A DNA stretch of 64,000 nucleotides from Tichowtungia aerotolerans (GTDB taxonomy: Bacteria; Verrucomicrobiota; Kiritimatiellia; Kiritimatiellales; Tichowtungiaceae), in assembly GCF_009905215.1 (NCBI RefSeq), contig NZ_CP047593.1:744001-808000 (forward strand), read 5' to 3'. The translations under genes were made by a program, and so were the position numbers. Under the pieces are notes generated by a model, which saw only the letters and a program-made list of their open reading frames with translations, searched no databases and was not told the origin of the DNA. Shown here in pieces: positions 35,617 to 57,218 of this stretch (positions are counted from its first letter, which is position 1; each line of letters begins with the position of its first letter).

Positions 35617-35623
35617 AGGTCTC

Positions 35624-38493: not shown

Positions 38494-38496
38494 GGG

Positions 38497-39408: not shown

Positions 39409-39522
39409 AAGAAATCCTTTCTTTGATTGAAGGAGATCATTGTGTCGCGCGGTACAGAAAAGCGGAATGGACAGGAGCACTAAAACATGTAAAATACGGC
39501 AAACTTAAATACATGAGGAGGA

Positions 39523-39594
39523 ATGGAATGATGGAATACAGGAATAGTTGGATGAATGGGATCAATTCAATCCTCCATCGTTCCATTATTCCAT
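39523..39594. promoter_or_regulatory. Candidate operator in the aldolase/PocR-AraC divergent region
   Basis: ATGGAATGATGGAA (39523-39536) is repeated in inverted form at 39581-39594 with 13 of 14 matches and a 44-base centre. Each arm also holds a direct repeat of ATGGAAT. The spacing suits two dimers of an AraC-type protein looping the 209-base divergent region. Confidence 0.45.
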
Positions 39595-39617
39595 AATTCC
39601 ACTCTTCCTTTCTTCCA

Positions 39618-40541: not shown

Positions 40542-41696
40542 CTATTGGTTATCCCGCACAATATCTGTAATCTCCAACGAAGAAAGCGGAATAACAGCCA
40601 ACTCACAGTCCTCTTTACCAAGAGAGTAGATTACATACAAATTGCCGTCATGCTCATACGCGTAGGGATACTGCCATCCGGGCATCTTATGCTTCCCTTT
40701 AAATACCGGCTGATAGGTTACGCCCTGACGTATTTTGTACATGCGCACAAAAGCCTCCCCGCCGGGACGACTAACCGCCACAGCAAGGGTACTGCGGTCC
40801 ATGGGATCTCCATCACTGACATTGGCAACCAGATACCGCTGACCAGTACTGAGCATTCCCCCAAAAACCTTCGAACGAATCATCGGGAAATTACTCGCCC
40901 GAGCACGAGTCCATGAGCGACCAAAATCTGAACTGGCTGAAACGCCGGCCACGCCTGGAAAACTGGAACGCATAACAGCGGTGACCTGCCCATCATCAAC
41001 AATCAGTGTTGTCTCCGAACACTTATCGCCTTTTGACACCGGAATGGGAACCCGATCCCAACGAGTAAAATCGTCACCATGACTGATAAACACACAGGCC
41101 CAGAAACCCGTATAAACCCCGCCGCAAATCCAGTTCCCGTTTGCCATCCGCACCGGGGCATCCACCATCCCGCCGCCGCGCGCAACTATACCTCGCGACT
41201 CCCAGCGGCCCGTTTTCCCGTTCAACAGAAAAGCTTCAGTATTGACCTGGCGCACTCCGCTTGAATAGTCGAACTGCAGCGCAAAGAACCACAACTCACC
41301 ATTATGCGAGATGTATGCCCCGTGCGAATGGGCCAGCTCCCCGGGGCACGAAGAGGCAATCACCTCCAGCTCAGACCACGTCAGTCCGCCATCCGCCGAC
41401 TGCTTCCCGCAAACCCGTTCAGCATCGCTGTTTTCATCCACCGGGCTGGCCGCCCAGTTTGCATAGAACACGCCCTGATGCTCAACAATTGCCGTTCCCA
41501 ACAGAAACCGGTCGCCGTCCGAAACAGCCTGATGCACCGAAACATAATCGAGACCATCAACATACGGCAGATCTGCAACATGCTCCGGCAAAGCCGGGCC
41601 GTCCCACAGCACCTCATCGGCCAGCACGGAAACGGCACTCAACGTAACCAGCAATCTGAATATGAATTTCAAAATAGAATCAAAATACAAACACAT
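40542..41696 (-). CDS. Secreted sialidase-fold (BNR repeat) protein
   Basis: 384 residues from the ATG at 41696. A signal peptide covers about 1-26. It has a six-bladed propeller pattern with Asp boxes S-A-D-G-G-L-T-W (near 100) and S-S-D-F-G-R-S-W. Conserved blocks are D-E-N-S-D-A-E-R-V-C-G-K, A-H-S-H-G, G-G-G-M-V-D-A-P-V-R-M-A-N-G-N-W, H-G-D-D-F-T-R-W and G-K-E-D-C-E-L-A. It is strikingly similar to the first 390 residues of the giant protein at 49-54 kb, so the two are recent duplicates. Family membership suggests an exo-sialidase or another exo-glycosidase/lyase; the catalytic residues were not verified. Last gene of the minus-strand cluster. Confidence 0.78.
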   Translation of the reverse strand: MCLYFDSILKFIFRLLVTLSAVSVLADEVLWDGPALPEHVADLPYVDGLDYVSVHQAVSDGDRFLLGTAIVEHQGVFYANWAASPVDENSDAERVCGKQSADGGLTWSELEVIASSCPGELAHSHGAYISHNGELWFFALQFDYSSGVRQVNTEAFLLNGKTGRWESRGIVARGGGMVDAPVRMANGNWICGGVYTGFWACVFISHGDDFTRWDRVPIPVSKGDKCSETTLIVDDGQVTAVMRSSFPGVAGVSASSDFGRSWTRARASNFPMIRSKVFGGMLSTGQRYLVANVSDGDPMDRSTLAVAVSRPGGEAFVRMYKIRQGVTYQPVFKGKHKMPGWQYPYAYEHDGNLYVIYSLGKEDCELAVIPLSSLEITDIVRDNQ

Positions 41697-41705
41697 TGCG
41701 ACCAA

Positions 41706-42665
41706 CTATTCCGTAATATCAAGGTATACCTCATTGCCATCGACCAGAACACTTCCTTTAAAACCGGAAGGCAAAGAACCGATACTCAGTCCATTATCCG
41801 AAATCGTTCCCGTACAGGAAAACAATGTATACCTCCCGGCCTCCAGACCGCCCAGATTGCTTACATTGAGTGTTCCATCAAGAACCAGATCTTCTGTAAC
41901 AATCCGATCTCCGGGGTCTTTCATGCTGCCGAGTTCAAACTCAAGCACCGACAATTCACTCAAAGAAAGCGTTCTGAGAGTAAGCGTTCCGGCAGCAAAA
42001 AAGCCCGGCGCAAGAATACCGCCGTCATGAATTGTGACAGGACGCAATACCGAACCGTCACCGCCGAACAACGCGCCCCGGGCAACAGACACCGGGACCA
42101 GCCGTCGATCCACGGTGCCGCGAGTCACCCACACATCTCCCTCGGAAACAACCAGCGCCCCGAAGGAGTTGATATTATCTTCTCCGCCACGAATCACCAG
42201 TCTGCCGCCGCCGGTTTTGGTCAACCCGCTCGACGCGCCGCCCAGCCCGCCATTCACATTGATTGTACTGCCGGCACCAACCTCCCACGTCTGACTGTTG
42301 CCCAAATACAATCGACTGTTAAACATCACGCTCCCGGCTCGTACCGGGTTCAATACAACACCGCCCCCGATATTCAGCGTATAGGTGTCTTTGCGCCCGA
42401 TGGTCCAATCCGGCCCATCGAACTGAATACGACCAACCGCCCATCCATAGTTCACAACCGGCTGACGGTTCCCCCCGGCACTGTCATCGGCAAAGCGGGC
42501 AACATCCTGAGACGTGCTGTTTTCCGGTCGGACTCCACCGATCCAGTTTTCCGGATCGGTCCATGCTGAATTCTTGCTGCCGTCCCAGGTGATCACTGCA
42601 GCTGATGTTGCAAAGACAAATGCGAACAGCGCAGTGACCCACCCATATATTATATTCTTCATCAT
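41706..42665 (-). CDS. Secreted single-unit autotransporter-type beta-strand repeat protein
   Basis: 319 residues. A signal peptide covers about 1-23, then one beta-helix-like unit: W-D-G-S-K-N-S-A-W-T-D-P-E-N-W at its start, L-T-K-T-G-G-G-R-L-V-I-R-G-G (the autotransporter-associated repeat) near 140, and L-E-A-G-R-Y-T-L-F-S-C-T-G near 285. The same unit occurs four times in the giant protein at 49-54 kb. It is probably a surface or matrix protein holding or presenting enzymes. It lacks the C-terminal FFR tail of its neighbour. Its TAG stop is followed, in the same frame, by the sialidase gene. Confidence 0.8.
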   Translation of the reverse strand: MMKNIIYGWVTALFAFVFATSAAVITWDGSKNSAWTDPENWIGGVRPENSTSQDVARFADDSAGGNRQPVVNYGWAVGRIQFDGPDWTIGRKDTYTLNIGGGVVLNPVRAGSVMFNSRLYLGNSQTWEVGAGSTINVNGGLGGASSGLTKTGGGRLVIRGGEDNINSFGALVVSEGDVWVTRGTVDRRLVPVSVARGALFGGDGSVLRPVTIHDGGILAPGFFAAGTLTLRTLSLSELSVLEFELGSMKDPGDRIVTEDLVLDGTLNVSNLGGLEAGRYTLFSCTGTISDNGLSIGSLPSGFKGSVLVDGNEVYLDITE

Positions 42666-42706
42666 TGTATTTACCGTTGGTTCAAATACTTCGTTCGGTC
42701 ATCGAT

Positions 42707-43981
42707 CTATTCAGCAATGATTCTGAAAAAACCTTCCGGCTCGATGGTCTTCACATAAATCACTTCATTCGTCGCCGACTCAAACTCTGTCACATAACTC
42801 AGATTGCTAACAACAAACGGCTCAGAACCGTCAACAGAATGCCCAATGGTCTCCCAGGCGTTGGCCGTAAGATTTGAGGCACAGAAAAGTGTATAGCGGC
42901 TTGCTGCATCCGGAGCATCGACAACCAGTCTCATCACATCACCGGAAACAGATGAACAGCTGACAATAGCAGCAGCCTGCGGCGGAGCATTCGCTGTAAC
43001 CTGAAGATAAACCCCTTCGGCATCAGTCGAAATACTGCCTTCAAAGCCATCCGGCAAGGTCAGATCCAACCCGTTATCCGTCAGCGTGCCCGCGCAAGTA
43101 AACAGAGTATACGTTCCCGGCTCCAGGCCTCCCTCATTGCTTACGTTAAGCTGTCCATCGAGAATTAAATCCTCTTCTACAACAACTTGATCACTGGTTT
43201 CTGCCAAGCTGTCGAGTTCAAAGTCCAAAATCGATGAAGCATTCAAAGAAAGAGACCTGAGCGTAAGCGTGCCCGGACCGCCATATCCCGGGGAAAGTGT
43301 GCCGCCGTCATTCACAGTAACTGGACGCAGAGCAGGTGCGGAGCCTCCAAATACAGCTCCACTGTTAACCGTCACCGTCGCAAGCCGCCGATCCATCACG
43401 CCGCTTGTCAGCAGAACCTTCCCCTCCGAAACAACAAGCGCCCCAAAGGTGTTTGTATTATCGACTCCCCCGCGAATAATCAGATTCCCCTCACCGATTT
43501 TTGTCAGCGTACTGGAAGCCCCGCCCATACCTCCATTGACATTAATGGTAGTTCCAGCACAGGCGTCCCATGTCTGATTTCCTCCCAGGTACAGGAAGCT
43601 GTTGAAAACCACAGAACCAGTATTTGTAGAATCTACTGTAACGCCGCCACCGATATTCAACACATAAGAGCCGCTGCGTCCTATAGTCCATCCAACCCCG
43701 TCAAACTGAACAGCACCAACTGCCCAATTATAATTCACAACCGGCTGGTTATTTACGCTTTCACTGTCATCGGCAAATCGAGCAATGTCCTGAGAAGTAT
43801 TGTTCGCTGGGCGAACGTCTCCTGCCCAGTTTGCCGGATCAGTCCAAGAAGAATTCTTGCTCCCATCCCATGTAATCACCGTTGCAGAAACTATCTCCGA
43901 AAAGCCCAGCAACACCCAGGCAAATAAACAGCAACACACTTTTTGCTTCAGCATTCTATTAACAACTGATCCGGTCTTCAT
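42707..43981 (-). CDS. Secreted beta-strand repeat protein with C-terminal extension
   Basis: 424 residues. A signal peptide covers about 1-33, then one beta-helix unit close to that of the next gene (W-D-G-S-K-N-S-S-W-T-D-P-A-N-W to Y-T-L-F-T-C-A-G). An extra C-terminal domain of about 90 residues starts near A-N-A-P-P-Q-A and ends E-G-F-F-R-I-I-A-E. That tail is homologous to the tail of the giant protein (ending K-F-F-R-V-V-G-Q). It may be an outer-surface sorting or binding domain. It lies 41 bases before the single-unit gene. Confidence 0.78.
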   Translation of the reverse strand: MKTGSVVNRMLKQKVCCCLFAWVLLGFSEIVSATVITWDGSKNSSWTDPANWAGDVRPANNTSQDIARFADDSESVNNQPVVNYNWAVGAVQFDGVGWTIGRSGSYVLNIGGGVTVDSTNTGSVVFNSFLYLGGNQTWDACAGTTINVNGGMGGASSTLTKIGEGNLIIRGGVDNTNTFGALVVSEGKVLLTSGVMDRRLATVTVNSGAVFGGSAPALRPVTVNDGGTLSPGYGGPGTLTLRSLSLNASSILDFELDSLAETSDQVVVEEDLILDGQLNVSNEGGLEPGTYTLFTCAGTLTDNGLDLTLPDGFEGSISTDAEGVYLQVTANAPPQAAAIVSCSSVSGDVMRLVVDAPDAASRYTLFCASNLTANAWETIGHSVDGSEPFVVSNLSYVTEFESATNEVIYVKTIEPEGFFRIIAE

Positions 43982-44064
43982 ACTTATCTCCTTTTTATTA
44001 CATGTCTTTTCTTCAATACCTCATAATAATCGATTCATCCCACCTGTCTGATATACGGGGAGTC

Positions 44065-45951
44065 TTACTGCAGCTCGGAAATCGGAATAACTGCCAACTC
44101 GGCGTTGTTATTGTTTACCCCTTCACCAAAAGCACTGTTCGAGTAACCGATATACAGCATCCCGTCCTTTTCAATCGCGCAGGGATAGGAGAGCTTGCAA
44201 TCCGCTTCGGACCACGGAACGTTGTCCTGAACGCTGTGGCGAACCAAACGAATCTCGCTCAAAGCCGCAGCGCCCGGACGACTGTATGCGATGGACAGCG
44301 GCGTACGGCTGTTTCCTCCGTCCGAACTGATATTTGCAATCAGATAATGCTGGCCGGTACTCAAGATTCCCGTACAGGGCTTACTGGCCGCCATCGGCAT
44401 ATTGGAGGCCTGAAGTTCCGTCCAGCTCCGTCCAAAATCACTGCTCTCAGCCACCAATGCATACGGCGTCTGCCACCACCAGCGGGAAATCATGGTCAGG
44501 TTGGCACCGTCAACAACAACCCCCGATTCGCCCCAAACGGAGCCCACCCCTTCGCCGGCCGGAATGACAATTAAATCCCAATTCATGAAGTCATCACCAT
44601 GACTGATGGCCACGGCCGGCAGGTTCTGACTGAGCGCCGTGCTGCTGGCCGGATAACCGTCAGGCGCGCAGATCCCGGCCATCACCCAGTTGCCGTCATC
44701 CATCTTCTCCGGCTGCTGCATCGGCCAGAATCCGTCCTCGATCACAACCCCTTGATATTCCCACTGGCCTGTTGTCTCATTCAACAGATAGGCTCGCGTA
44801 TGCGTGTTCTCAAAATCATTGGAAAACGCCCCCTGGAATGCCCACAACTGATCGACATATGATAAAAACACGCCATGGCTGATAGACAGAGATCCTTCCC
44901 CGTCTGCAATACTCTTGACGTCACCCCAGGTTTGCCCCCCATCATCACTGATTCGGTAATGGGCAGACTCTCCCTCTGTATTCTCTGCCCCGGTGTTATG
45001 ACCAAACGATGCATACAGCTGGCCTTTGTGCCACGCCAGGCCGACTCCATGAAGCCACTCGTAGCCGTCATTCTGAGGCTCATACGCCTTGATGGCACGA
45101 AACGCCACCCCGTCAACAGGTTTAAGATCTGCCGCTTTCGGAACCGACCACAGACTGACCCGCCCGTTCGTTTCATCCACATCCAGTCCCTCAAACGCAG
45201 TATTAATCCCAACGCCCTGAACCGTCAGGGCCGGGCGAACGGATTCATCAGAAACTTCTGAGGAATGGAAAATCAGCGCATTTTGACTCGCAGCCGTCTC
45301 ATCCGTCACCAGGAGAAATCCGGCATTGTCACCGCCCTGAATCCAGGACGCGATCGCGGCCAATCCTTCGGCAGAGTCGATTGTAAACGTGACGGTATCC
45401 CCAACGGCAACAGAGGCCGTATCAACGGAAACACTGCTCAGCACCGCCGAAATGCCGGCAGATGCCGTATCGTGGCCGACCCCCGGCCCGCCCGTCCACT
45501 CTCGCGAACCCTCAGCCAAAGAACTCCAGCAGGCCGAACCGCTCTGAACCGCAGTATTGGCAGTCCCTTCCACCCAGTCTTTGTTTGCCGTATCAATCAG
45601 CAAAAGCCTGAGCTCCATATTCCCCACATCAGAATGGACCTTGCCGGTACTGGCCACGGTCAGCGTCAATGACGCAGAAGAAACGGACGCAGCATCATTT
45701 ACCGATGCCAAATCAAAGCGCATCAGGGACCGATATCGGTCCGTACTGTTATTCATTCCGGCAATCAGATTTCCGTGAGCCCCCCAGTTCACCGAGGCAT
45801 ACGCATCGGCACTGTACATAAAATTATCGCCCTCCGCATCGAAACTCCGGAAAGACAAAGGTTGATCCGCAGCAAGAAGCTGCACGCTCAGCGCAAGCGC
45901 ATTCACACATCCGGCAATCCAGCACATCATCATTTTTCGCATAACATTCAT
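44065..45951 (-). CDS. Secreted DNRLRE-sialidase-fold protein
   Basis: 628 residues from the ATG at 45951 (a TTG two codons earlier is in frame). A signal peptide ends near L-L-A-A-D. Residues about 30-215 match the DNRLRE beta-sandwich domain (Y-R-S-L-M-R-F-D-L, A-S-L-T-L-T-V-A, G-D-T-V-T-F-T-I). About 220-628 is a sialidase-type propeller with S-D-D-G-G-Q-T-W and S-S-D-F-G-R-S-W Asp boxes and H-G-D-D-F-M-N-W. It is the divergent third paralogue of the sialidase-fold proteins here. DNRLRE domains often accompany polysaccharide-active enzymes. The enzyme activity is inferred. Confidence 0.75.
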   Translation of the reverse strand: MNVMRKMMMCWIAGCVNALALSVQLLAADQPLSFRSFDAEGDNFMYSADAYASVNWGAHGNLIAGMNNSTDRYRSLMRFDLASVNDAASVSSASLTLTVASTGKVHSDVGNMELRLLLIDTANKDWVEGTANTAVQSGSACWSSLAEGSREWTGGPGVGHDTASAGISAVLSSVSVDTASVAVGDTVTFTIDSAEGLAAIASWIQGGDNAGFLLVTDETAASQNALIFHSSEVSDESVRPALTVQGVGINTAFEGLDVDETNGRVSLWSVPKAADLKPVDGVAFRAIKAYEPQNDGYEWLHGVGLAWHKGQLYASFGHNTGAENTEGESAHYRISDDGGQTWGDVKSIADGEGSLSISHGVFLSYVDQLWAFQGAFSNDFENTHTRAYLLNETTGQWEYQGVVIEDGFWPMQQPEKMDDGNWVMAGICAPDGYPASSTALSQNLPAVAISHGDDFMNWDLIVIPAGEGVGSVWGESGVVVDGANLTMISRWWWQTPYALVAESSDFGRSWTELQASNMPMAASKPCTGILSTGQHYLIANISSDGGNSRTPLSIAYSRPGAAALSEIRLVRHSVQDNVPWSEADCKLSYPCAIEKDGMLYIGYSNSAFGEGVNNNNAELAVIPISELQ

Positions 45952-45974
45952 CCCCAACCTTATCTTCTCGACGT

Positions 45975-47060
45975 TTATTCTGCTTCAGCCGTCCCACAGC
46001 AAAGGGACTTATCCGGATCAGACGAAATCAGCTCCGCCGCCCCCGCGCCCTGCAGTTCGACAGCACTTCGGCCTTCCCGTTTTCGCCAACAGGATGCCAG
46101 CATCGAACTGGTAATGGCGCTCCACGGCCCAAAAGTGGCGGCAGCCATGGCCGCCTGAGTACTCTGAAGAATATTGAAAGCCAGTCCCGTGGCCATGCCG
46201 CCATTCTGTATTCCCACCTCAATGGCAACCGTTCGGCAATCCCGCGCACTCATCCGGAAGAACCGCGCGGCCTGATATCCCAGCAAATAACCCAGCGCGT
46301 TATGACACGCCGCCGCGCCGAAGAGAGCCAACCCCACTTTCAGAAGGTCATCGCGCGACAGGGCGATGGTCACGCCAATGATAATGCAGATTGAAAGCAT
46401 GGCCAGCGACGGCAGCACCTTGACCAAAACCTTTGCCAGCCGCGGCAGGTAGCGATGAATCAAAAGCCCGACCACCAGCGGCAGAATAATCATCTTAAAA
46501 ATTGAAACCATCATCGGCAGAAAAGCGATCGGAACGTATGTTCCGGCGAGCAGCTTCATCGCCAACGGAGTCATCAGCGGCGAGATCATCGTGGAACAGG
46601 CCGTCATCGTCACCGACAGCGGCACATTGCCGCGAGCGAGGTACACAATAACATTCGATGCCACCCCGCCGGGACAGGAGCCAATCAGAACCAGCCCGGC
46701 GGCAACGCCGGCCTCCAGTCCGAAAACCCGGGCACAAAGAAAGCCGACGAACGGCATGATGGTAAATTGAAGCCCCATGCCGATAAACACAGCACGGGGC
46801 ATTTTCAAAACCCGCCGGAAATCATCAAAGCTCAACGTCATTCCCATTCCGAAAAGAATGAGCTGGACGAGGGGAACGATCGTTCGCTTCAGCTCAAATC
46901 CGCCCAGCGAAACAAAACAGGCCGGAAATGTAAATGCCGCGGAAGCAAAGGCAAACACCATGAACGTAAACCCGAGACCTTTTAACCTATTCCCCAGGCG
47001 GGCATAGACTGCCAGGCCCGCAAACATGAACATGATTAAACTTCCAAGATAGATATTCAT
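45975..47060 (-). CDS. Bile-acid:sodium symporter (SBF) family transporter
   Basis: 361 residues with about ten membrane helices. It has the SBF marks G-M-G-M-T-L-S-F-D-D-F near 75, G-S-C-P-G-G-V-A-S-N-V-I near 130 and E-V-G-I-Q-N-G-G-M-A near 285, the sodium-site crossover motif. Members move organic acids with Na+. Placed between sialidase-type genes and two 2-keto-acid lyase genes, it likely imports the acidic product (sialic acid or a keto-deoxy acid). It would thus replace the usual NanT, SiaT or TRAP carriers. It ends in a hydrophilic tail rich in Ala/Glu. Confidence 0.85.
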   Translation of the reverse strand: MNIYLGSLIMFMFAGLAVYARLGNRLKGLGFTFMVFAFASAAFTFPACFVSLGGFELKRTIVPLVQLILFGMGMTLSFDDFRRVLKMPRAVFIGMGLQFTIMPFVGFLCARVFGLEAGVAAGLVLIGSCPGGVASNVIVYLARGNVPLSVTMTACSTMISPLMTPLAMKLLAGTYVPIAFLPMMVSIFKMIILPLVVGLLIHRYLPRLAKVLVKVLPSLAMLSICIIIGVTIALSRDDLLKVGLALFGAAACHNALGYLLGYQAARFFRMSARDCRTVAIEVGIQNGGMATGLAFNILQSTQAAMAAATFGPWSAITSSMLASCWRKREGRSAVELQGAGAAELISSDPDKSLCCGTAEAE

Positions 47061-47087
47061 CGTGTCTGCCTTTGTTTTATCTGGTGA

Positions 47088-48002
47088 CTAGATCAGCCCC
47101 AGGCGCACCAAGTGGCTGCGCATAATTTCAATTTCCTCCGGCGTGGCCGGTGCCAGCGGAAGGCGCGGCACACCCACGTTTAATCCACACAGATTCATAG
47201 CCGCCTTCCACAGCGGAATCGGGTTAATCCGTCCGTTGCTTCCAAACGCCTTAAACAGCGGATCCATGTCCATATGGATCTTACGGGCACCATTCACATC
47301 GCCTGCAAGAAACGCATCAATCATCGTCCGCATCATCTTTCCGAGAATGATTGATCCGCCGCTCACCACGCCGGCGGCTCCCTGAGCCAACCCGCAGAGT
47401 ACCATAATATCGTCACCGTTATAGATGGTAAAATCATCCGGGGTCACATGAGTGAAATCGCTCATCTGCGTCGGGTTGATTCCGGCTTCATCCTTGATCG
47501 CCACGATATTGGAATGCGCTTCAGCCAACCGTCCGAGCGTTTCTTTCTCAAGGTTGAACCCCTGGAAGATCGGAATGTTATAAAGCATTATCGGCAGCGA
47601 TGTGGCTTCCGCAATTGCAGAATAATGAAGGAACGCGCCCTCCTGATTCGGCTTGCAATAGCAGGGGCCCAGCACCATGGCGGCATCAAATCCGAGTTTT
47701 TCCGCTTCCTGTGTCAGACGAATAGCCTGACGCGTTTCACTGGAGCAGGCTCCGGCAACCAAAGGAACCCGGCCGGCGGCCGCCTCTTTGACAACACGGA
47801 AAAGCTCCAGCCGCTCCTCCAGACTCATCGCATTGAACTCACCGGACGTTCCGCCGATAATCAGCGAGTCACAATGATTCTGCTCAATCACATAGTTTGT
47901 CAGTTCCGCAGCAGCGGTATAATCCACATCCTGCGAGCCATCCTTGAACGGCGTCGCCAACGGAATGACAATATGCCCAAGTTTTTTACCTAAATTTTCC
48001 AA
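47088..48002 (-). CDS. DapA/NanA-family lyase 1
   Basis: 304 residues, a TIM-barrel class I aldolase of the dihydrodipicolinate-synthase/N-acetylneuraminate-lyase family. It has G-G-T-S-G-E-F (about 50-56), the Tyr in L-Y-N-I-P-I, the Schiff-base Lys in A-I-K-D-E-A-G near 170, and G-V-V-S-G-G. Sequence details look nearer to DHDPS, but the catabolic setting and distance from dapB suggest a sugar-acid lyase giving pyruvate. The next gene upstream encodes a second, different member (54-base gap). Confidence 0.85.
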   Translation of the reverse strand: MENLGKKLGHIVIPLATPFKDGSQDVDYTAAAELTNYVIEQNHCDSLIIGGTSGEFNAMSLEERLELFRVVKEAAAGRVPLVAGACSSETRQAIRLTQEAEKLGFDAAMVLGPCYCKPNQEGAFLHYSAIAEATSLPIMLYNIPIFQGFNLEKETLGRLAEAHSNIVAIKDEAGINPTQMSDFTHVTPDDFTIYNGDDIMVLCGLAQGAAGVVSGGSIILGKMMRTMIDAFLAGDVNGARKIHMDMDPLFKAFGSNGRINPIPLWKAAMNLCGLNVGVPRLPLAPATPEEIEIMRSHLVRLGLI

Positions 48003-48055
48003 TTTCAGGTCCTTTCTTCTTAATCTTCTTCGTATCTATAATTCCCGGCAGTACA

Positions 48056-48961
48056 TCACACCCGCACTTCGGGCAGCTCCTCGGGTAAAAGGTTGGCCTG
48101 CTCCAGCGCATAGCGCAGCTGCGCTGTCACATCCGGCTCCGGCTCCAGAACCGGCTTGCGCGGCAGGCCGCCGGTGCGTCCCAGCAGTTCAAGGAGCTTC
48201 TTCACGCGGCCGGGGAATGCCATTCCGGCACAGCTGACCATCTGCCAGACCGGAACCAGGCGGGAATGAATCTCCAACGCCTCATCAATCCGGCCGGCCT
48301 GGACCGCATCCCACTGCTGAACGCACAGCTCGGGGAACACAGTCAGAATCGCGGAAATCGATCCGGTCGCTTTCAGCAGATAATCAAAAACCAGCATATC
48401 GTCCTGCGCGCCGTACACATTCGTCAGTGCCCCGCAGGTCGACATCATTGCATTAAATCCGTGCATCCCGCCGACGCTCTGCTTAATCCCCATCACATTA
48501 CGGATCTGAGAAATATCCATCATCATCTCAGGAGTGATCGGATTCTGCGCAATCACATTATAGATAATGATTGGAAGATCCGTCGCGCCGGAGAGATCCT
48601 GATAAAACGAATAATTTCCGCGGGCATCAGTGCCATGGTAAAAAGTCGGCGTAACCATCAGCGCATCCGCCCCGGCGGCAACGGCGCGCGTTGCAGCCCG
48701 CACGGCATCCCGCGTGGAGTTGCGGATAATGCCGCAAACCAGCGGGCAGCGGCCGGCGGCTTCGTCTGAAAGAATCTCCAAACCACGCACCAGTTCATCG
48801 TCCAAAAGCAACGCGCCCTCGCCGGTACTGCCGCCCAGACTCAAGCCGTGCACCCCCGCATCGAGCAAAAAACGAACCTCGCTGCGCAACGCAGATTCAT
48901 CGACTTCACCTTCTGCATCAAACGGCGTAACCAACGGCGGAATCACTCCCTGAATACTCAT
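48056..48961 (-). CDS. DapA/NanA-family lyase 2
   Basis: 301 residues of the same aldolase family: G-G-S-T-G-E-G (about 43-49), I-I-Y-N-V-I-A-Q-N-P, Lys in M-G-I-K-Q-S-V-G. It is clearly divergent from its neighbour, so the pair is not a recent duplication. It might split another 2-keto-3-deoxy acid, or one of the two may be a dehydratase-type member. First gene of the 48.9-40.5 kb minus-strand run. The 170-base upstream gap (48962-49131) follows the giant gene and probably holds a promoter and the shared motif at 49007-49020. Confidence 0.83.
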   Translation of the reverse strand: MSIQGVIPPLVTPFDAEGEVDESALRSEVRFLLDAGVHGLSLGGSTGEGALLLDDELVRGLEILSDEAAGRCPLVCGIIRNSTRDAVRAATRAVAAGADALMVTPTFYHGTDARGNYSFYQDLSGATDLPIIIYNVIAQNPITPEMMMDISQIRNVMGIKQSVGGMHGFNAMMSTCGALTNVYGAQDDMLVFDYLLKATGSISAILTVFPELCVQQWDAVQAGRIDEALEIHSRLVPVWQMVSCAGMAFPGRVKKLLELLGRTGGLPRKPVLEPEPDVTAQLRYALEQANLLPEELPEVRV

Positions 48962-49006
48962 AAAACAACCTCCTGCAAAAAAACTCTACTTCACATACTG
49001 TCGATT

Positions 49007-49020
49007 TGATAAATGCGATT
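49007..49020 (+). promoter_or_regulatory. Shared motif TGATAAATGCGATT upstream of lyase 2
   Basis: A 14-mer that matches TGATAAATTCGATT at 58426-58439, upstream of the GRP transporter operon, with one mismatch. Both sit in the same orientation about 50-210 bases before minus-strand operons. TAAATCAC directly follows this copy and also occurs in the operator region at 54.3 kb. Confidence 0.3.
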
Positions 49021-49131
49021 AAATCACACGAAAAAACGCAGTAAAGGTAAATGATAACAGGCAAACCGTTTTGACTTAATCCGCCGATTGAAATAATCGA
49101 TCTAGCATATCGACCGTAAAAAAACGACACA

Positions 49132-52100
49132 TTACTGCCCAACGACGCGGAAAAACTTCAACGCATCGACGAGCCGCACATAAATCACTCGGCCCGCATC
49201 TCCTGCGGAGGAATAACTCAGGTTAGTTACAATAAACCCATGCACGCCGTCATCCGAATGCGGCACACGCCCCCACCCCCCGTACGGCAGATTGGTTGAC
49301 GACTCCACAACATAACGGATCGCGGCATCCGGCATTTGAACAACCAGCCTCACAACATCACCGAAAACAACCGGCCCGCCGACAATTGAAGCCGGACGAA
49401 CCGGCTCCAGGGCCGGGAGATCATTCTTCTCCACAACTAAAACAACAAGATTCACCACGCCATTGGACACAGCAACCGTGCCGGCAAAGCCGACCGGCAA
49501 CTGCCCAACCTGCAACCCGTTATCCGTCAGCGCACCGGCGCAGGAAAAGAGCGTATAAGTTCCCTCCTGCAGACCGCCAAAATCACTCACATTCAATAAT
49601 CCATCCAGAACCAGCGAATCCACAGCAACCGAATCATTGCTGCCCGGCAGGCCGCCGAGCTCAAAATCCAACACCGACGTATCGTTAAGCGCCAAACTGG
49701 AAAGCGTCAGCGTCCCGGCACCTCCGTCCCCCGGGGAAAGCGTCCCGCCACCGGCAACCGCAACCGACCGATCAATCGTTCCGCTTCCGCCCAGAACTGC
49801 CGCACCGCCGACAGACACCGTCGCCGCGCGCGAGTCCAGCACGCCATTGACCAGCAATGTTCCGGAAGAAACCACCGTATTTCCATAGCCATTATTCGCC
49901 CCGAAAAGAACCAGCGCCCCGGCTCCCGACTTTGTCAAGGTCGACGACGCCCCGCCGATATTCCCGTGAATCTCAACTATATTGCTTTCCTCAATCGTCC
50001 AAGCCTGATCATCCCCAAGATATAATGAGCTTTGAATCGTGTTCGTGCCGCCCGACTCAGCCGCCCGCGAACTGATTCCACCCGAACCAATCCCCCAAAC
50101 CGAACTGCCATTGCTTCCGACCTCCCAGCCTGCTCCCAGAAAATCAACCCCGCAAATATTCCTGGAGGCATTGATTGCCGGTTGAAAAGCCACATCCTGA
50201 CTGTTCACAAACTTCGCAAAAGAAGACGTAAACGAACTTACCGGCATCACGCCGGTTTCCCAGTTGGACCCGTTGGTCCAGTCCGTATTATTGCTTCCGT
50301 CCCACGCAACAACATCCCGCAACGTTAAGCGAACGGCCCCGCCGGAAACGGATAGACTCCCCTCAAACCCATAGGGCAGCGCGCCGGAGCGAAGCTCCAA
50401 GCCATTGTCCGTCAGCGCACCGCTGTATGTGATCAGCGTATATGTCCCGGCCGACAGCCCGCCCGAATCGGTCACACGAAGCCGCCCATCAAGAACCAAA
50501 TCCGCCGCACCGATCTGATCACAGCCGCCAGCCGAACCGAGCTCAAAATCCAAAACCGAAGAACTGCCCAAGGTCAGATTGGAAACCGTCAACTCGCCGG
50601 CCCCATTACCTCCCGGAGCCAGGATCCCGCCATTAAACACCTCAACAGACCGATGAACCGTCCCCGTGCCGCCAAAAATCGCCGCATCCCGCACCGAGAC
50701 TCCTGCGGCACGAGAATCGAGCACGCCATCAACCAGCAGCGTTCCTTCAGCCACAACCGTTACTCCATATGAATTCTGCGCACCCGAAAGAATCAATCTT
50801 CCCGGACCGGTTTTCGTTAAGGAAGAAGCCGCCCCACCGACACTGCCGGCGGCGACCAGCGTATTGCCCGCGCTGACAAACCAGTCCTGGCCATCCCCCA
50901 GATGCACCCGGGACTCAACAACATTAAATCCCCCGGACTCACCGTCACTGACGACAACACCTCCGCACCCAATGCCCAGAACCGACGCCCCATTACTGCC
51001 AACCGTCCAACCGGAGCCTGCAAAATGAACTGCATTCACATTTCTGGAGGCATTAATTACCGGCATATTCAAAACCGCAGCACTGCCCTCAAACCTGGCA
51101 AGCGCCGAATAATAATCACTGAAAGGCATCGCGCCGGCGACCCAGTTCTGCCCATACGTCCAGTCTGTATTATTACTGCCATCCCAAACCGCCACGTCCG
51201 GCGCCGCAAACACATTCAGGCAAACCGCGGTACTGACAACTGAGATCTCACCAACAAACCCGTACGGCACATCTCCCATCTCCAGCCCGTTATCACTCAA
51301 TACACCGTCAAACGAAATCAAGGTGTAAGAGCCCGGAGAAATATCCCCCAGCGCCACAATATCCAACACCCCATCCAGCGTCAGGTTTCCCGTCTCAATC
51401 CGATCCACCTCATTTGATGGTCCCACCTCAACCACCAGCCGGGACTCAGCGTCGAGAACCAGCTCGGACACATTCAGCACCCCCGAGCCCTGATCGCCCG
51501 GAGAGACAGTCCCTCCCCCCAAAACACTGACAACACCATCGACCACGCCGGTTCCGCCAAAAACCGAATGGTTACTAACCGATACCGGCGCACAAAATCC
51601 CGCCGGGCTGTTTACCAAAAGCGTCCCGGCGCTCACACAGATTTGGGCAACCGAATTTGACCCGGCGAGAACCAAAGTCCCCTCGCCGGCCTTCTCAAAC
51701 ACCCGGCCGGCGCCACTCATTCGCCCGTCCGCAACAAGCGTATTGCCCGCCGCAACGTCCCACGCCTGATCCGCCCCAAGATAGACAGCCGACTGAATCC
51801 AATTCGTACCCGCCCCGGCACTGACGACCCCTTCGCCGCCGATCCCCCACAGAGAACTCCCATTCCAGCCCACCGTCCAGCCGGAATCGGAAAACTGAAC
51901 CCCGCCGATGCTTCTCGAAGCATTGATTGCCGGCATATTCGGAACCACCGAAGCATTACCGAACCGGGCGACTTCCGTATTGAAATCATTCACAGGCATC
52001 ACGCCGGAATCCCAGTTGGCTCCATAGGTCCAATCCGAATTATTACTCCCATCCCAGACAACCGGCCCCGTCACAGCAAGGCTAACAACACCGGCCGAGA

Positions 52101-54120
52101 CGGAAACACTGCCCTTAAAACCGCTCGGCATGCCACGAACCTGCAGCCCATTGTCCGTTACCGCTCCGCTGCAGACAAATAACGTGTACCCCCCCTCTTC
52201 CAAAGCATCGGCATCTGAAACATCCAACAACCCGTCTAAAACCAAATCCCCAACCACAACCCGGTCACTGCTCCCCGACAGCCCATCCAACTGAAACCGA
52301 AGCACCGAATTGCTGCTCAATGCAAGCCCGGACATCGAAAGCGCTCCCGGCCCGCCGTCGCCGGGCTCCAGAACCCCGCCATCGGAAACCGAAACCGGCG
52401 CACCGATCGTTCCATTCCCAGACAACACAGCCCCTTCACAAACAGAAACGGGTGCACTGAAACCGGCGGAACTGTTAACCGCCAAAGTCCCGTTCGAAAC
52501 AACAACCCCCGCCATCGCATTGGTTCGCCCTGCCAGCACCAGCTTTCCGCCACCGGCCTTGCACAACGTCCGCGCGCCTGTAACTGAACCATTGGTCACA
52601 ACCAGTGTATTTCCTGCGCTGACTGTCCAGCACTGGTCGGATGCCAGAAATAGATTCGGGTGAATCGCATTCACTCCCAACGCCCCTTCCGCAGCAAAAG
52701 TGATACCGGCGGAACCAATCCCCCACGTGGACGTTCCGTTACTGCCAACCGTCCAGCCGCCACTGTCAAAATCAACCCCATGAATATTTCTCGATGCATT
52801 AATCGTCGGCATATACAAAACCGCCGCACTGTCAACAAACTCGGCAATATCGGTTGTAAAATCAGTAACCGGCATCGATCCGCACTCCCAGTTCTGGCCG
52901 TTGGTCCAATCCGAACTGACACTGCCATCCCACGTTACCGCAGCAAACAGCTGATCGGTCGCCGGAGCCACCCATTCAATAGAACCGGAGGTATTCAGCG
53001 CAGAGATCGGAATAATCGCCAGCTCGCAATCTTCCTTCCCCAGCGCATAAATCACATACAGATTTCCGTTGTACTCATACGCATACGGATAGTGCCACCC
53101 CGGCGTCTTATACAAACCTTCAAGCAATGGCTGCGGAGTTCTGCCCCTCCGAACAGTCCACATGCGGCAAAAGCTTTGCGTCGCGGGCTGACCAACCGCA
53201 ATGACCAAAGTGTCGCGATCATTCCCGCCCCCATCGCTGACATTCGCAATCAAATACGGCTGACCATTGCTTAACACTCCCCCAAACGGCTTGGATTGAA
53301 CCATGGAAAAATCGCTGGCCTGAGCCGCACTCCAGCTGCGCCCGTAATTCTGGCTGACCGAAATCCCGGCCGCCCCGGGAAAGCTCGACCGCATCACCGC
53401 GATCAGTTTGTCATCATAAACAAGAATGGTTGTTTCCGAACACTTGTGATTCGGCACAATCGGAACAGGAACCCGATCCCATCTGGTAAAGTCATCTCCA
53501 TGACTGATAAACGCGCAGGCCCAGAACCCGGTATAAACCGCCCCGACAATCCAGTTCCCATTTGCCATCCGGACCGGCGCATCCACCATCCCGCCGCCCG
53601 CGGCAACAATCCCAAAGGATTCCCACTCGCCCGTCTGTTCATTAAGAAGAAACGCCTCCGTATTCACCTCTCGGGCTCCATCGGGCGCATACTCAAAGCG
53701 CATGCCGAAAAACCAAAGCTGCCCGTTATACGAAATATACGGTCCGTGCGAATGGGCCAATGTCCCCGGCAGCGATGGAACAATGACTTCTTTATCGGAC
53801 CAGGTCAGCCCGCCATCCGTCGACGTTTTTCCACACACGCGCTCCGCATTGCTGTTTTCATCACGCGGCCCATTGGCCCAATTCGCGTACAGGATTCCAT
53901 TATGCTCAACAATGGATGCCCCAAGCAAAAACTGATCCTCTCCCCGCACCGCCTGATGCACCGCGACATAGGTCGCTGAAGATACAGAGGGCACATCGCG
54001 AACATTGTGAGGCAGGTTCGGGCCCGTCCAAAGTTCTGGAACCTGCCCCAACGCCGGCAGGCTGTTCATTATTCCACACCACACCAATAACAGATTCTGC
54101 GCAAACCTTATCGCCACCAT
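49132..54120 (-). CDS. Giant secreted sialidase plus four-repeat beta-strand protein
   Basis: 1662 residues from the ATG at 54120 (signal peptide about 1-26, ending L-G-Q). Residues about 27-390 form a sialidase-type propeller with S-T-D-G-G-L-T-W and S-Q-N-Y-G-R-S-W. Four tandem beta-helix units of about 290 residues follow (near 393-690, 690-978, 978-1273, 1273-1565). Each starts W-D-G-S-x-x-(S/T)-D-W-T and carries the autotransporter-type L-x-K-x-G-x-G-x-L-x-L repeat. The last 90 residues form a tail domain ending K-F-F-R-V-V-G-Q. It is probably a surface-displayed exo-enzyme on a long stalk. No barrel is present, so it is not a classical autotransporter. Confidence 0.85.
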   Translation of the reverse strand: MVAIRFAQNLLLVWCGIMNSLPALGQVPELWTGPNLPHNVRDVPSVSSATYVAVHQAVRGEDQFLLGASIVEHNGILYANWANGPRDENSNAERVCGKTSTDGGLTWSDKEVIVPSLPGTLAHSHGPYISYNGQLWFFGMRFEYAPDGAREVNTEAFLLNEQTGEWESFGIVAAGGGMVDAPVRMANGNWIVGAVYTGFWACAFISHGDDFTRWDRVPVPIVPNHKCSETTILVYDDKLIAVMRSSFPGAAGISVSQNYGRSWSAAQASDFSMVQSKPFGGVLSNGQPYLIANVSDGGGNDRDTLVIAVGQPATQSFCRMWTVRRGRTPQPLLEGLYKTPGWHYPYAYEYNGNLYVIYALGKEDCELAIIPISALNTSGSIEWVAPATDQLFAAVTWDGSVSSDWTNGQNWECGSMPVTDFTTDIAEFVDSAAVLYMPTINASRNIHGVDFDSGGWTVGSNGTSTWGIGSAGITFAAEGALGVNAIHPNLFLASDQCWTVSAGNTLVVTNGSVTGARTLCKAGGGKLVLAGRTNAMAGVVVSNGTLAVNSSAGFSAPVSVCEGAVLSGNGTIGAPVSVSDGGVLEPGDGGPGALSMSGLALSSNSVLRFQLDGLSGSSDRVVVGDLVLDGLLDVSDADALEEGGYTLFVCSGAVTDNGLQVRGMPSGFKGSVSVSAGVVSLAVTGPVVWDGSNNSDWTYGANWDSGVMPVNDFNTEVARFGNASVVPNMPAINASRSIGGVQFSDSGWTVGWNGSSLWGIGGEGVVSAGAGTNWIQSAVYLGADQAWDVAAGNTLVADGRMSGAGRVFEKAGEGTLVLAGSNSVAQICVSAGTLLVNSPAGFCAPVSVSNHSVFGGTGVVDGVVSVLGGGTVSPGDQGSGVLNVSELVLDAESRLVVEVGPSNEVDRIETGNLTLDGVLDIVALGDISPGSYTLISFDGVLSDNGLEMGDVPYGFVGEISVVSTAVCLNVFAAPDVAVWDGSNNTDWTYGQNWVAGAMPFSDYYSALARFEGSAAVLNMPVINASRNVNAVHFAGSGWTVGSNGASVLGIGCGGVVVSDGESGGFNVVESRVHLGDGQDWFVSAGNTLVAAGSVGGAASSLTKTGPGRLILSGAQNSYGVTVVAEGTLLVDGVLDSRAAGVSVRDAAIFGGTGTVHRSVEVFNGGILAPGGNGAGELTVSNLTLGSSSVLDFELGSAGGCDQIGAADLVLDGRLRVTDSGGLSAGTYTLITYSGALTDNGLELRSGALPYGFEGSLSVSGGAVRLTLRDVVAWDGSNNTDWTNGSNWETGVMPVSSFTSSFAKFVNSQDVAFQPAINASRNICGVDFLGAGWEVGSNGSSVWGIGSGGISSRAAESGGTNTIQSSLYLGDDQAWTIEESNIVEIHGNIGGASSTLTKSGAGALVLFGANNGYGNTVVSSGTLLVNGVLDSRAATVSVGGAAVLGGSGTIDRSVAVAGGGTLSPGDGGAGTLTLSSLALNDTSVLDFELGGLPGSNDSVAVDSLVLDGLLNVSDFGGLQEGTYTLFSCAGALTDNGLQVGQLPVGFAGTVAVSNGVVNLVVLVVEKNDLPALEPVRPASIVGGPVVFGDVVRLVVQMPDAAIRYVVESSTNLPYGGWGRVPHSDDGVHGFIVTNLSYSSAGDAGRVIYVRLVDALKFFRVVGQ

Positions 54121-54290
54121 GTGTCTTCCCCCAGTTGAATGAGTCTTCTGAAATCGATGAAACACCATCCATTCGCCCGCCACACCTCAGCATCCGCCTT
54201 CGCATATAAATAACACGCAACCATCCCAAGGAAGCACACCACGAGACACAGTAAAGACAAAACAAAAGCAACCATTGATTAACAACGGAT

Positions 54291-54326
54291 TCACTGATAT
54301 AAATCACTGATTTAACATAAAATCAG
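54291..54326. promoter_or_regulatory. Candidate operator between the giant gene and the FCD-AraC regulator
   Basis: Direct repeat TCACTGAT at 54291-54298 and 54304-54311, overlapping an inverted repeat CTGATTT (54307-54313) / AAATCAG (54320-54326). It lies 6 bases before the regulator start, in the 211-base divergent region, so it may mediate autoregulation and control of the giant gene. Confidence 0.4.
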
Positions 54327-54331
54327 CAGAT

Positions 54332-55129
54332 ATGAATGATACAAACATAACATCTCCTGAAAATTTCCGCATGCTTTGCGACCTAAGAGCGGAGCTGGAA
54401 ATTTTTGCCGTGCGGCAGATCTGCAAAAAGAATGACAGGGCCTGGGTTGAAGCTCAGTTCACCCCCATTTTAAAGCGCCTTCTAAAGGCAACAAAAGAGC
54501 ATGACAGCGCCGCATTCACAAAAGAAGACCAGGTTTTGCACAAAACAATCATTGAACTGGCGAACCTGCCTGTTTTGAAATCCATTTGGGAAACCGTCTG
54601 GGAAACTCTGGCCCGGTTTCATCGTGAAAGCTTTTCCAAATACTGGCCGGACCTGCGAATATTAATGCGCGAACATGAATATTTAATCAATACCATCTGC
54701 TCCTGCGATCTGTCGGCCGCTGAAGACGGTGTGCGAAATCACCTTCAGGCCATCTGGTTTCGAATCGCACAAAAAGAAGATGAAACCCAGTTGCAAACAA
54801 GCCCGCTGTCGCGCGCCGTCTCCTACATTTCATTCAACCTTCAACACCCGCTAATCCTCAACCAAATCGCCGGCGAGATTGCATTCACAAGCGCCGGGCA
54901 TCTCTCAAAACTCTTCAAGGATCGTTACGGAAAAAGCTTTCAAAGCTATGTTCAGGAGATGAGGCTCGACAAAGCCGCGACCCTGCTGCAGCAAACAGAC
55001 CTGCCGATTTCAACAATCGCTCACCGCGTAGGATACCAGGACATCTCCCGGTTCGGACAGCACTTCAAACGACGCTTTGAAAAGACCCCCAACCAATGGA
55101 GACAACACACTCGGGAAAAAACAGGCTGA
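54332..55129 (+). CDS. Chimeric regulator: FCD ligand-binding domain plus AraC DNA-binding domain
   Basis: 265 residues. Residues about 12-150 match the FCD domain of GntR/FadR-type regulators: L-R-A-E-L-E-I-F-A-V-R at the start, E-D-Q-V-L-H-K-T-I-I-E-L-A-N-L-P-V-L (Asp/His ligands), R-E-H-E-Y-L-I-N-T-I and D-G-V-R-N-H-L (further His). Residues about 165-262 form an AraC domain with both helix-turn-helices (I-A-G-E-I-A-F-T-S-A-G-H-L-S-K-L-F-K; G-Y-Q-D-I-S-R-F-G-Q-H-F-K). The N-terminal GntR winged helix is missing; a stop codon just upstream rules out a longer frame. NanR, the sialate regulator of enterics, is a GntR-FCD protein, so an FCD sensor beside sialidase/NanA-like genes makes sense. 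Confidence 0.82.
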   Translation: MNDTNITSPENFRMLCDLRAELEIFAVRQICKKNDRAWVEAQFTPILKRLLKATKEHDSAAFTKEDQVLHKTIIELANLPVLKSIWETVWETLARFHRESFSKYWPDLRILMREHEYLINTICSCDLSAAEDGVRNHLQAIWFRIAQKEDETQLQTSPLSRAVSYISFNLQHPLILNQIAGEIAFTSAGHLSKLFKDRYGKSFQSYVQEMRLDKAATLLQQTDLPISTIAHRVGYQDISRFGQHFKRRFEKTPNQWRQHTREKTG

Positions 55130-55159: not shown

Positions 55160-56203
55160 TTATTTCGAGCCGCTCTTTTCCATCGTGCCGAAAAAATCCT
55201 CCAGAATCGCATCGGCGTCAAAATCATCCCACACGATCATTTTCATCGGATTATCCGGCCGCTCCTCCCATCCATTCCCGACGAGAGCCGGGCGCGGCAT
55301 CACCGTTGAGCGCGCCCAGTCCGGATTTTTCACGACAGCGATTGCGCCCACATCAAACAGGGATCGATAGGGTGGGTTTCCATGCTGCCGCGCACAGGAA
55401 AACAGGCTTTTCGAATAATCCCCGAAACAGCTGAATTCTCCTCCATGACGCCCCGTCACCGATTGGGAAAGGTGCGGCCCGAGCCCCGGCATCCTGCGAA
55501 AAATCTCCTCCTGATACGCTTTGATAACCCACGTCCCGCCGGGATTAACCGTATCCTTATAACGAACCGTAACCATTTCAAACTCAACAGAAGATTCCAG
55601 CAGGTACCGAACCGCCGACAAATCATCCATCATATTATACTCCCCCGGCTTGGGATAGTTCGACCCCAGCCACACAACCTTCACGTTGGGAATAATCGAC
55701 GGATCCCTGGCCAGCGCCAAAGCAATATTGGTCAGCTTTCCAATCGGCAACAGAACCAGCTTGCGGTCGGATTTGATCTTCGCCTGCTGGATAATAAAAT
55801 TAACGGCTTCGTATCCGTCAAAATAAGGCATATCGATGTTCGGCAGAATATCTTCGAAGATGCCGTTTGCCCCACGATACAAAGGAACCTTGAGATAACG
55901 ATTGCAAAGCTTCACCACCCGAACCGCCTCTTTCATCTGCTCACGAACATCCCCGCCATTGCGCGTTTTATTAACCGTAATCCCCTCCACATCAAAAACG
56001 TCATCACTAAACAGCGCATAGGCAATTGCATGCTGATCGTCCGTTTCATTGTTTGCATCCGAATCAATCAGCACCCGTATTTTTTCGGGCGATTCAGCAA
56101 GGGCGGATGCCGCACCGGCTGCATATCCCAAATGCGGAATGAGCATTCCAATCACAACCAGGCAAACCATTACATTGATCGTCGTTACATATCTCTTCAG
56201 CAT
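55160..56203 (-). CDS. Exported inosine-uridine-type nucleoside hydrolase
   Basis: About 347 residues from the ATG at 56203. A signal peptide covers about 1-29 (ending Y-A-A-G). The nucleoside-hydrolase calcium site is V-L-I-D-S-D-A-N-N-E-T-D-D-Q-H-A (near 45-58) with L-L-P-I-G-K-L-T-N-I-A-L-A in the middle. Near the C-terminus lies F-D-V-G-A-I-A. The canonical D-T-D-P-G-x-D-D is changed to D-S-D-A-N-N-E-T-D-D, as in a subgroup of secreted members. It splits the N-glycosidic bond of ribonucleosides. It is followed upstream by ribokinase and a sugar transporter in one operon. Export of the hydrolase makes sense if ribose is imported afterwards. Confidence 0.82.
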   Translation of the reverse strand: MLKRYVTTINVMVCLVVIGMLIPHLGYAAGAASALAESPEKIRVLIDSDANNETDDQHAIAYALFSDDVFDVEGITVNKTRNGGDVREQMKEAVRVVKLCNRYLKVPLYRGANGIFEDILPNIDMPYFDGYEAVNFIIQQAKIKSDRKLVLLPIGKLTNIALALARDPSIIPNVKVVWLGSNYPKPGEYNMMDDLSAVRYLLESSVEFEMVTVRYKDTVNPGGTWVIKAYQEEIFRRMPGLGPHLSQSVTGRHGGEFSCFGDYSKSLFSCARQHGNPPYRSLFDVGAIAVVKNPDWARSTVMPRPALVGNGWEERPDNPMKMIVWDDFDADAILEDFFGTMEKSGSK

Positions 56204-56262
56204 CTTTTTCCCCAATCCGTCATCCCTGTTATATCCCAACATCGCCCCTGCAAACCAAGCCG

Positions 56263-57165: not shown

Positions 57166-57218
57166 AACAACGTCTCCCCTGCTCACTGATTCAAAAACAA
57201 TCAAAACACCTGTTCAAC

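Follow-up and report, generated by a model that had tools for sequence, protein, structure and literature searches.

A conserved SBF carrier, lyase and sialidase-fold gene set in Tichowtungia aerotolerans: a candidate cassette for the scavenging of an acidic 2-keto sugar acid

What sugar is handled by a locus that places sialidase-fold proteins beside DapA-family lyases and a bile acid-type sodium symporter? The question is raised by positions 40542-55129 of a 64,000-nucleotide stretch of the Tichowtungia aerotolerans genome (the window, by which we mean the whole stretch of DNA analyzed), part of the single 3.88-Mb contig NZ_CP047593.1. A preliminary description, made from the letters of the window, had placed here three secreted sialidase-fold proteins, repeat-rich surface proteins, two different lyases of the DapA/NanA type and an SBF symporter as importer, together with a regulator (REG). 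The open reading frames are present where it had put them, and these assignments were borne out: BNR_2 scored above cut-off in all three sialidase-fold proteins (BNRrep, BNRcbm and BNR3), PATR repeats were found in BNRrep, two single-repeat proteins (PATR1 and PATR2) carry hydrophobic leaders, and the lyases and the carrier matched PF00701 and PF01758, respectively. That these five proteins (BNRrep, BNRcbm, BNR3, PATR1 and PATR2) are secreted was judged by eye, from hydrophobic N-terminal leaders. In order of transcription, the minus strand carries BNRrep, lyase A, lyase B, SBF, BNRcbm, PATR1, PATR2 and BNR3, with REG divergent on the plus strand (Table 1). The intergenic gaps are of 0-83 bases, except for 170 bases before lyase A; such spacing fits one operon without proving it, and the minus-strand genes may form a single transcript. 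On balance, we favor the view that the locus is a mobile cassette for the scavenging of an acidic 2-keto sugar acid other than N-acetylneuraminate (Neu5Ac).

That the genes form a conserved unit is supported by their relatives. The SBF protein was scanned against 84,980 genomes, with one genome per species, which gave 30 SBF loci (numbered L below; genomes are numbered G). In 16 of these the SBF protein is at least 52.6% identical to that of the window; two lie on contigs shorter than 4 kb and could not be judged, and the 14 with more than 6 kb of contig were counted. A lyase is found in all 14, a related BNR_2 protein in 13 and REG in eight, the match in L034 being a partial one of 77 residues. 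In the 14 loci with an SBF protein less than 50% identical, in contrast, neither BNR_2 nor REG is present and a lyase, of another type, occurs once (L051). This sharp split rules out chance clustering, and the set first described in the window is thus conserved in its relatives. As judged by the titles of their sequence records, the carriers come from five phyla, namely Lentisphaerae, Kiritimatiellae, Verrucomicrobia (including Opitutae and Spartobacteria), Planctomycetes and, with Membranihabitans, Bacteroidota, and the BNR_2 domains are 41-56% identical to that of BNRcbm across phyla. Closer to home, among 288 genomes sampled from the phylum of the window, a cassette-level SBF score was found only in the window genome and in G270, and at 1e-60 the SBF protein matched in none of four congeners and none of seven order mates. 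Seven further SBF regions were examined: one (L088) is the carrier locus of G270, and the other six contain no relatives of the lyases or of BNR_2. The SBF proteins of these six score lower; they belong to the window genome, to G270 and to four further genomes. This patchy distribution, over phyla as against congeners, suggests that the cassette spread horizontally and is mobile.

The lyases keep catalytic residues of the DapA family while having lost a hallmark of dihydrodipicolinate synthase (DHDPS; DapA). In an alignment of the active-site columns, the Schiff-base lysine and the tyrosine are kept in both window lyases and in all cassette lyases. Arg138 of DapA binds the carboxylate of aspartate-semialdehyde; this residue is replaced in lyases A and B. 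The genome has 14 PF00701 members in all, including a group with YNMPxxTK loops (L014-L018); one of the 14, encoded elsewhere, is a true DapA that shares 43% identity with its E. coli counterpart, keeps the arginine and scores 356 bits against TIGR00674. The active-site columns and the separate DapA rule out a plain DHDPS identity, which would have refuted the preliminary description, even though lyase B passes the NCBIfam dapA model (TIGR00674, 236.9 bits for a cut-off of 206.15); automatic annotation would therefore misname it. Nor do the two lyases resemble NanA. They score 118.9 and 92.1 against the nanA model TIGR00683 (cut-off 382) and 139.4 and 114.8 against NF003164 (cut-off 281), and Glu192 of NanA is replaced, the Asp-Glu of NanA being Asp-Asp in lyase A and Asp-Ile in lyase B. 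In a tree of 35 sequences the cassette lyases fall into three clades, with support of 99/97 for A plus A', 99/99 for B and 100/100 for C. Type A occurs together with B in the window, L026, L027 and L035, and alone in L028, on a truncated contig; A' is found in L030-L033 and C in L025, L029, L034, L036, L037 and L043. That three lyase lineages occupy one slot beside one clade of carriers suggests a shared kind of reaction. The residues of the lyases were also considered as a guide to the name of the substrate, and set aside because no characterized subfamily is close enough.

Since SBF stands beside a lyase in all 14 judgeable carrier loci, it is the best candidate for the importer of the lyase substrate, as had been proposed. 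Its closest solved chains are those of ASBT_NM (8oyf, 8oyg and 3zuy; E about 1e-63), including the complex with pantoate. The motifs S-N and E-V-G-I-Q-N-G-G, which belong to the sodium site and the cross-over, do not vary among the 13 cassette SBF proteins aligned, and neither do N286 and G288, the counterparts of N265 and G267 of ASBT_NM; T112 of ASBT_NM is a valine in the window and a threonine in some relatives. According to PMC10645422, ASBT_NM binds pantoate through T112, A113, G267 and Asn 265, PanS is implicated in the transport of ketopantoate and pantoate, and plant relatives in the bile acid sodium symporter (BASS) family move pyruvate, glycolate and chain-elongated 2-keto acids. Moreover, KdgT, the transporter of 2-keto-3-deoxygluconate (KDG), belongs to the same BART group as SBF (PMC8396727). 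The preliminary description had taken an SBF route for a keto-deoxy sugar acid to be new; these precedents show that to be an overstatement, and they make a 2-keto sugar acid a reasonable rather than an exotic substrate to propose for SBF. The cassette carrier thus shares its fold family, sodium-site motifs and pantoate-contact motifs with ASBT_NM, PanS and plant BASS2/BASS5, but differs from them in its gene neighborhood, which includes a lyase and secreted glycan enzymes, and its score with the PanS model (NF047939, 224.9 bits) is below the cut-off of 400.

REG had been described as an FCD-type regulator. Its FCD part stands, but the usual joining of FCD to GntR does not: an AraC helix-turn-helix (HTH) domain, which had been missed, takes the place of the latter. 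No GntR match was found in REG with Pfam, and the FCD match starts at residue 15; between the nearest in-frame stop and the start of REG there is room for only seven residues. The metal ligands of FCD-GntR regulators such as NanR (D/H/H/H) align with those of REG and are kept in the window and in seven relatives; unlike in these regulators, the FCD domain of REG is N-terminal, there is no winged helix and the AraC HTH is C-terminal. NanR binds Neu5Ac and zinc (PMC8012715). A REG profile gave one match per genome in 10 of 15 carrier genomes, with only an HTH piece in G010 and with the match in G014 on a contig other than that of the carrier locus. In the phylum sample it matched in four of the 288 genomes, three times at 29-33% identity, and the FCD-AraC architecture was confirmed in both of the two distant relatives that were scanned out of these three (L116 in G080 and L117 in G268). 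The gene in G080 adjoins an SBF-like gene and lies near a BNR_2 protein; no DapA-like lyase was detected by tblastn near either. From its presence in other genomes, we take the FCD-AraC hybrid to be a small, real family and not an accident of the window genome. No report of an FCD-AraC fusion was found in the literature searched, outside which most subscription papers fall.

An AraC HTH is expected on direct half-sites two helix turns apart. The intervals between the regulator and the first gene in five relatives share TATGCGAAATC, with a second TATGC or TATGG at 22 bp, and in leave-one-out scans each of these sites was the best of its own locus. At two loci outside the training set, L029 and L043, the best match, with scores of 28.6 and 33.0, respectively, again lay a short way upstream of the lyase, as compared with a maximum of 16.4 in 20 random 64-kb sequences; no score above 16.7 was obtained in L026, L027, L028, L034, L035, L036 and L037. 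Genome-wide, and allowing at most one mismatch, eight matches were found in seven of the 15 carrier genomes. Of these eight, seven are cassette sites; no match was obtained with the reversed control. In L043, where the regulator is on another contig, three TATGC half-sites follow each other at 22-bp steps upstream of the lyase (1519-1590). The TATGC half-sites 22 bp apart are likely to be the operator of REG in the relatives, and the corresponding site of the window (Table 1) is suggestive of the same function. This site overlaps the GTG annotated as the start of BNRrep (54183), which fits a later start; the true start is probably the ATG at 54120, which is preceded by GGGGGAAG and has the better ribosome-binding site. 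Scans for promoters and terminators scored little higher than shuffled sequence and were left aside.

BNR3 has the fold of sialidases, and its residues tell a less simple story. The AlphaFold2 model of BNR3 (pLDDT 87.7, built from 20 aligned sequences) is a six-bladed sialidase fold, with a Z score of 34.4 over 306 aligned residues, at 2.5 Å, to the Micromonospora enzyme 1wcq. From the spacing of motifs, E231 and Y346 of BNR3 could form the nucleophile pair and R246 could be one arginine of the triad; the position of the acid/base aspartate seems to be held by His128, and the first arginine seems to be replaced by Leu, His or Lys. The pair Glu96/His128 is confined to the cassette clade, where it occurs in 20 of 20 proteins. 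The only PDB sequence match of BNR3 is 5mqr (phmmer E 8.8e-6), the structure of BT_1020 from Bacteroides thetaiotaomicron, which we take to be a GH143 hydrolase of 3-deoxy-D-lyxo-heptulosaric acid (Dha) joined to GH142. The two share the motifs of R304 and Y346, with 20% identity in the Foldseek match, but the alignment leaves E231 and R246 unmatched and BNR3 lacks the arabinofuranosidase half. With Pfam, the BT_1020 propeller model PF24067 is unmatched by the window BNR proteins and matched by a paralogue. We did not adopt a GH143 assignment, because E231, R246, R304 and Y346 have counterparts at the same sites in other BNR_2 proteins (all four in five of the seven compared), so that the match is unspecific. 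5mqr was not among the best 50 structural matches of BNR3, which excludes nothing. The literature searched held no link of BT1020 with rhamnogalacturonan and Dha, and BT1020 goes unmentioned in the available parts of the papers on heptulosaric acid. A profile of BNR3 and BNRrep, with a C-terminally shortened BNR3 as reference, matched only Asp-box entries.

Several secreted proteins carry additional parts. BNRcbm scores 24.1 bits with CBM96, below the Pfam cut-off of 26. In BNRrep the repeats recur at a DNA spacing of 870-882, and PATR1 and PATR2 have no Pfam match. The best Foldseek match of PATR2, the autotransporter Ssp, has an E value of 4.2e-5, and the modeled repeat unit is a beta-helix like those of autotransporter passengers; our guess is that such units may serve binding or display.

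Which sugar, then? NanE, NagA, NagB and NanK had been described as lacking, and this was found to be so in Pfam scans of the locus and its flanks. For the genome as a whole it stands for NanE and not for NagB: NanE is over its cut-off in none of the 15 carrier genomes, that of the window included, with one sub-threshold match (it is over cut-off in six of 14 controls), whereas NagB is over cut-off in 13 of the 15. Sialidase-fold enzymes occur in many sialic-acid users, and nan clusters such as nanRATEKQ of E. coli (L055) combine a DapA-family lyase, a cation-driven carrier and an FCD regulator as the cassette does. Unlike in these clusters, the cassette lyases are not NanA by score or by residue, NanE is missing, the carrier is SBF and not of the MFS, SSS, TRAP or ABC type, and FCD is joined to an AraC rather than a GntR HTH. 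As judged from the sequences, the likeliest substrate is a 2-keto sugar acid other than Neu5Ac, and the sugar is probably not an ordinary sialic acid; candidates may include deaminoneuraminic acid (Kdn), 3-deoxy-D-manno-octulosonic acid (Kdo), Dha and KDG-like acids. Nothing joining a bile acid sodium symporter with sialic acid or N-acetylneuraminate lyase was found among the literature matches listed, and nothing on a gene set of SBF, sialidase and DHDPS type in planctomycetes or Verrucomicrobi; most subscription papers lay outside both searches.

The favored pathway would run as follows. Secreted sialidase-fold enzymes, some with carbohydrate-binding or beta-helix parts, would free a terminal acidic sugar outside the cell; SBF would import the sugar acid with sodium, gripping its carboxylate/2-keto end as related carriers grip pantoate; and the DapA-family lyase or lyases would form a Schiff base and release pyruvate and an aldehyde. 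The position of Dak1, directly after BNR_2 in L030, L032 and L033, with Dak2 behind it in L030 and L032, suggests a use for a triose product. REG would sense the acid through its metal-binding FCD domain and, with its AraC-type HTH on the direct-repeat operator, control the operon. Several observations weigh against this scheme or parts of it. The sialidase catalytic residues, as read from sequence and spacing, are only partly kept, and hydrolysis of a keto-acid glycoside is therefore not assured; no related BNR_2 protein is found within the 21 kb of L031. The lyase slot is filled by three separate lineages, which could mean different substrates, and the window has two lyases where most relatives have one. 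REG is missing from the stretch covered in six of the 14 carrier loci, and a genome-wide search found none in five of 15 genomes. The operator site of the window is weak, ranking 11 among the 36-mers of both strands with a matrix trained on relatives. Finally, the window genome does have NagB (C1:1556874-1557608, 309.7 bits for a cut-off of 236.9), unlinked to the locus, and one copy of the N-acetylglucosamine (GlcNAc) 2-epimerase family.

These last two genes are what a Neu5Ac pathway of the Bacteroides kind would need if its genes were scattered: release by the BNR proteins, import by SBF, cleavage to N-acetylmannosamine, conversion to GlcNAc by an unlinked GlcNAc 2-epimerase and completion by NagA and NagB. 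The wide occurrence of NagB, the presence of the epimerase family in nine of 15 carrier genomes and the sialidase fold of BNR3 agree with it. We nevertheless consider it quite improbable: all lyases tested are far below the nanA cut-offs and lack Glu192 of NanA, six of the 15 carrier genomes (mostly drafts) have neither NanE over cut-off nor the epimerase family, the epimerase gene of the window genome is more than 2 Mb away and near another DapA-like gene, and the canonical sialidase residues appear incomplete. Unlikely, in our estimate, is a six-carbon 2-keto-3-deoxy acid (KDG-like) derived from uronate polymers by BNR proteins acting as lyases or hydrolases, with cleavage to pyruvate and glyceraldehyde and phosphorylation by Dak. 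Dak1 is present in three of the four A'-type loci, as mentioned above; YagE is among the PDB matches of lyase A, and KdgT is in the transporter group of SBF. Pfam scans of part of the flanking genes, however, showed no hexuronate isomerase, uronate dehydratase or KDG kinase, and the Arch_KDGaldase and KdgD scores of the lyases are far under cut-off. SBF might also import pantoate, ketopantoate or another organic acid unrelated to its neighbors, which would then be a separate polysaccharide operon. The PanS score and the kinship to ASBT_NM lend this some color, but that score is under the PanS cut-off and the lyase is adjacent in 14 of 14 judgeable loci with SBF above 52% identity as against one of 14 below 50%, and we regard it as very unlikely.

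Returning to the scavenging of a 2-keto sugar acid other than Neu5Ac, a bolder form of the proposal is possible, if rather short of probable: that the cassette represents a previously undescribed, horizontally spread pathway through which several phyla feed on Kdn, Kdo, Dha or a sulfated relative, drawn from glycans of an algal or plant-like type, by means of a new sialidase-fold clade marked by Glu96 and His128, BASS import, interchangeable DapA-family lyases and an FCD-AraC regulator. The locus is a defined, testable gene unit common to several phyla. If the proposal is true, BASS carriers gain a role in glycan use, and AraC, rather than GntR, is a second way of reading out the FCD acid sensor. 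Automatic annotation as "sialidase", "DapA" and "bile acid symporter" would in each case give a wrong idea of these genes, and knowing the substrate would direct attention to an acidic sugar that has been overlooked in glycans of the environment.

Table 1. Genes and candidate operator of the locus, in window coordinates.
Feature	Description	Position	Strand	Evidence
BNRrep	Secreted BNR_2 (sialidase-fold) protein with four PATR/beta-helix units of ~290 aa	49132..54183	-	Pfam BNR_2 66.7 bits, PATR 50.7 bits; four units aligned
Lyase A	DapA-family Schiff-base lyase, type A, YNV--IAQN loop, without the DHDPS arginine	48056..48961	-	PF00701 173.9 bits
Lyase B	DapA-family Schiff-base lyase, type B, YNIPIFQG, without the DHDPS arginine	47088..48002	-	PF00701 234 bits
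SBF	SBF/BASS sodium symporter, candidate importer	45975..47060	-	PF01758 142.2 bits, cut-off 24.3
BNRcbm	Secreted protein with DNRLRE/CBM96-like domain and BNR_2 domain	44065..45957	-	BNR_2 53.9 bits; DNRLRE 60.8 bits
PATR1	Secreted single-unit beta-helix repeat protein	42707..43981	-	62% identical to PATR2, 39-44% to BNRrep units
PATR2	Secreted single-unit beta-helix repeat protein	41706..42665	-	AlphaFold2 pLDDT 87.3; Foldseek best match Ssp 8e7f
BNR3	Secreted BNR_2 protein	40542..41705	-	BNR_2 78.3 bits; 66% identical to BNRrep BNR domain
REG	Divergent FCD-AraC hybrid regulator without GntR winged helix	54332..55129	+	FCD 67.4 bits, HTH_18 83.3 bits
Operator	Candidate AraC-type operator, TATGCGAA ... 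TGTGGCGG at +22	54174..54209	-	Weak in window, strong in relatives

On one side of the cassette lies an operon of its own (34465-40418), which has a PocR-AraC regulator and genes of the fucose-isomerase-C, FGGY kinase, class II aldolase and mannitol-dehydrogenase-like kinds and would suit a pentose or a deoxyhexose. A link between the cassette and its fucose-isomerase/FGGY/class II aldolase part (34465-39480), which would suit D-arabinose from Kdo, was considered but not supported, as this operon was not found next to the cassette of any relative; a distant MtlD-like gene is present in L026, and an FGGY kinase in L028. On the other side, nucleoside-hydrolase-like, ribokinase and ureide-permease-like genes occupy 55160-58217. 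A nucleoside-hydrolase-like protein 67% identical to that of the window is encoded in L018, beside a DapA-like lyase and an SSF carrier.

Two other loci of the same genome, at about 1.97 and 1.99 Mb of C1 (L023:8239-13262 and L024:8717-13761), carry genes for DapA-like, Gfo/Idh oxidoreductase, sodium:solute symporter and BNR_2-like proteins in identical order, and the BNR_2 protein of L023 also matches the BT_1020 propeller model. In Balneolaceae (L039-L041 and L048), where the SBF proteins are 46-48% identical, the neighbor of SBF is not a DapA-type lyase but a member of an RraA-like aldolase family that recurs among these loci, joined in L041 by a GlcNAc 2-epimerase.

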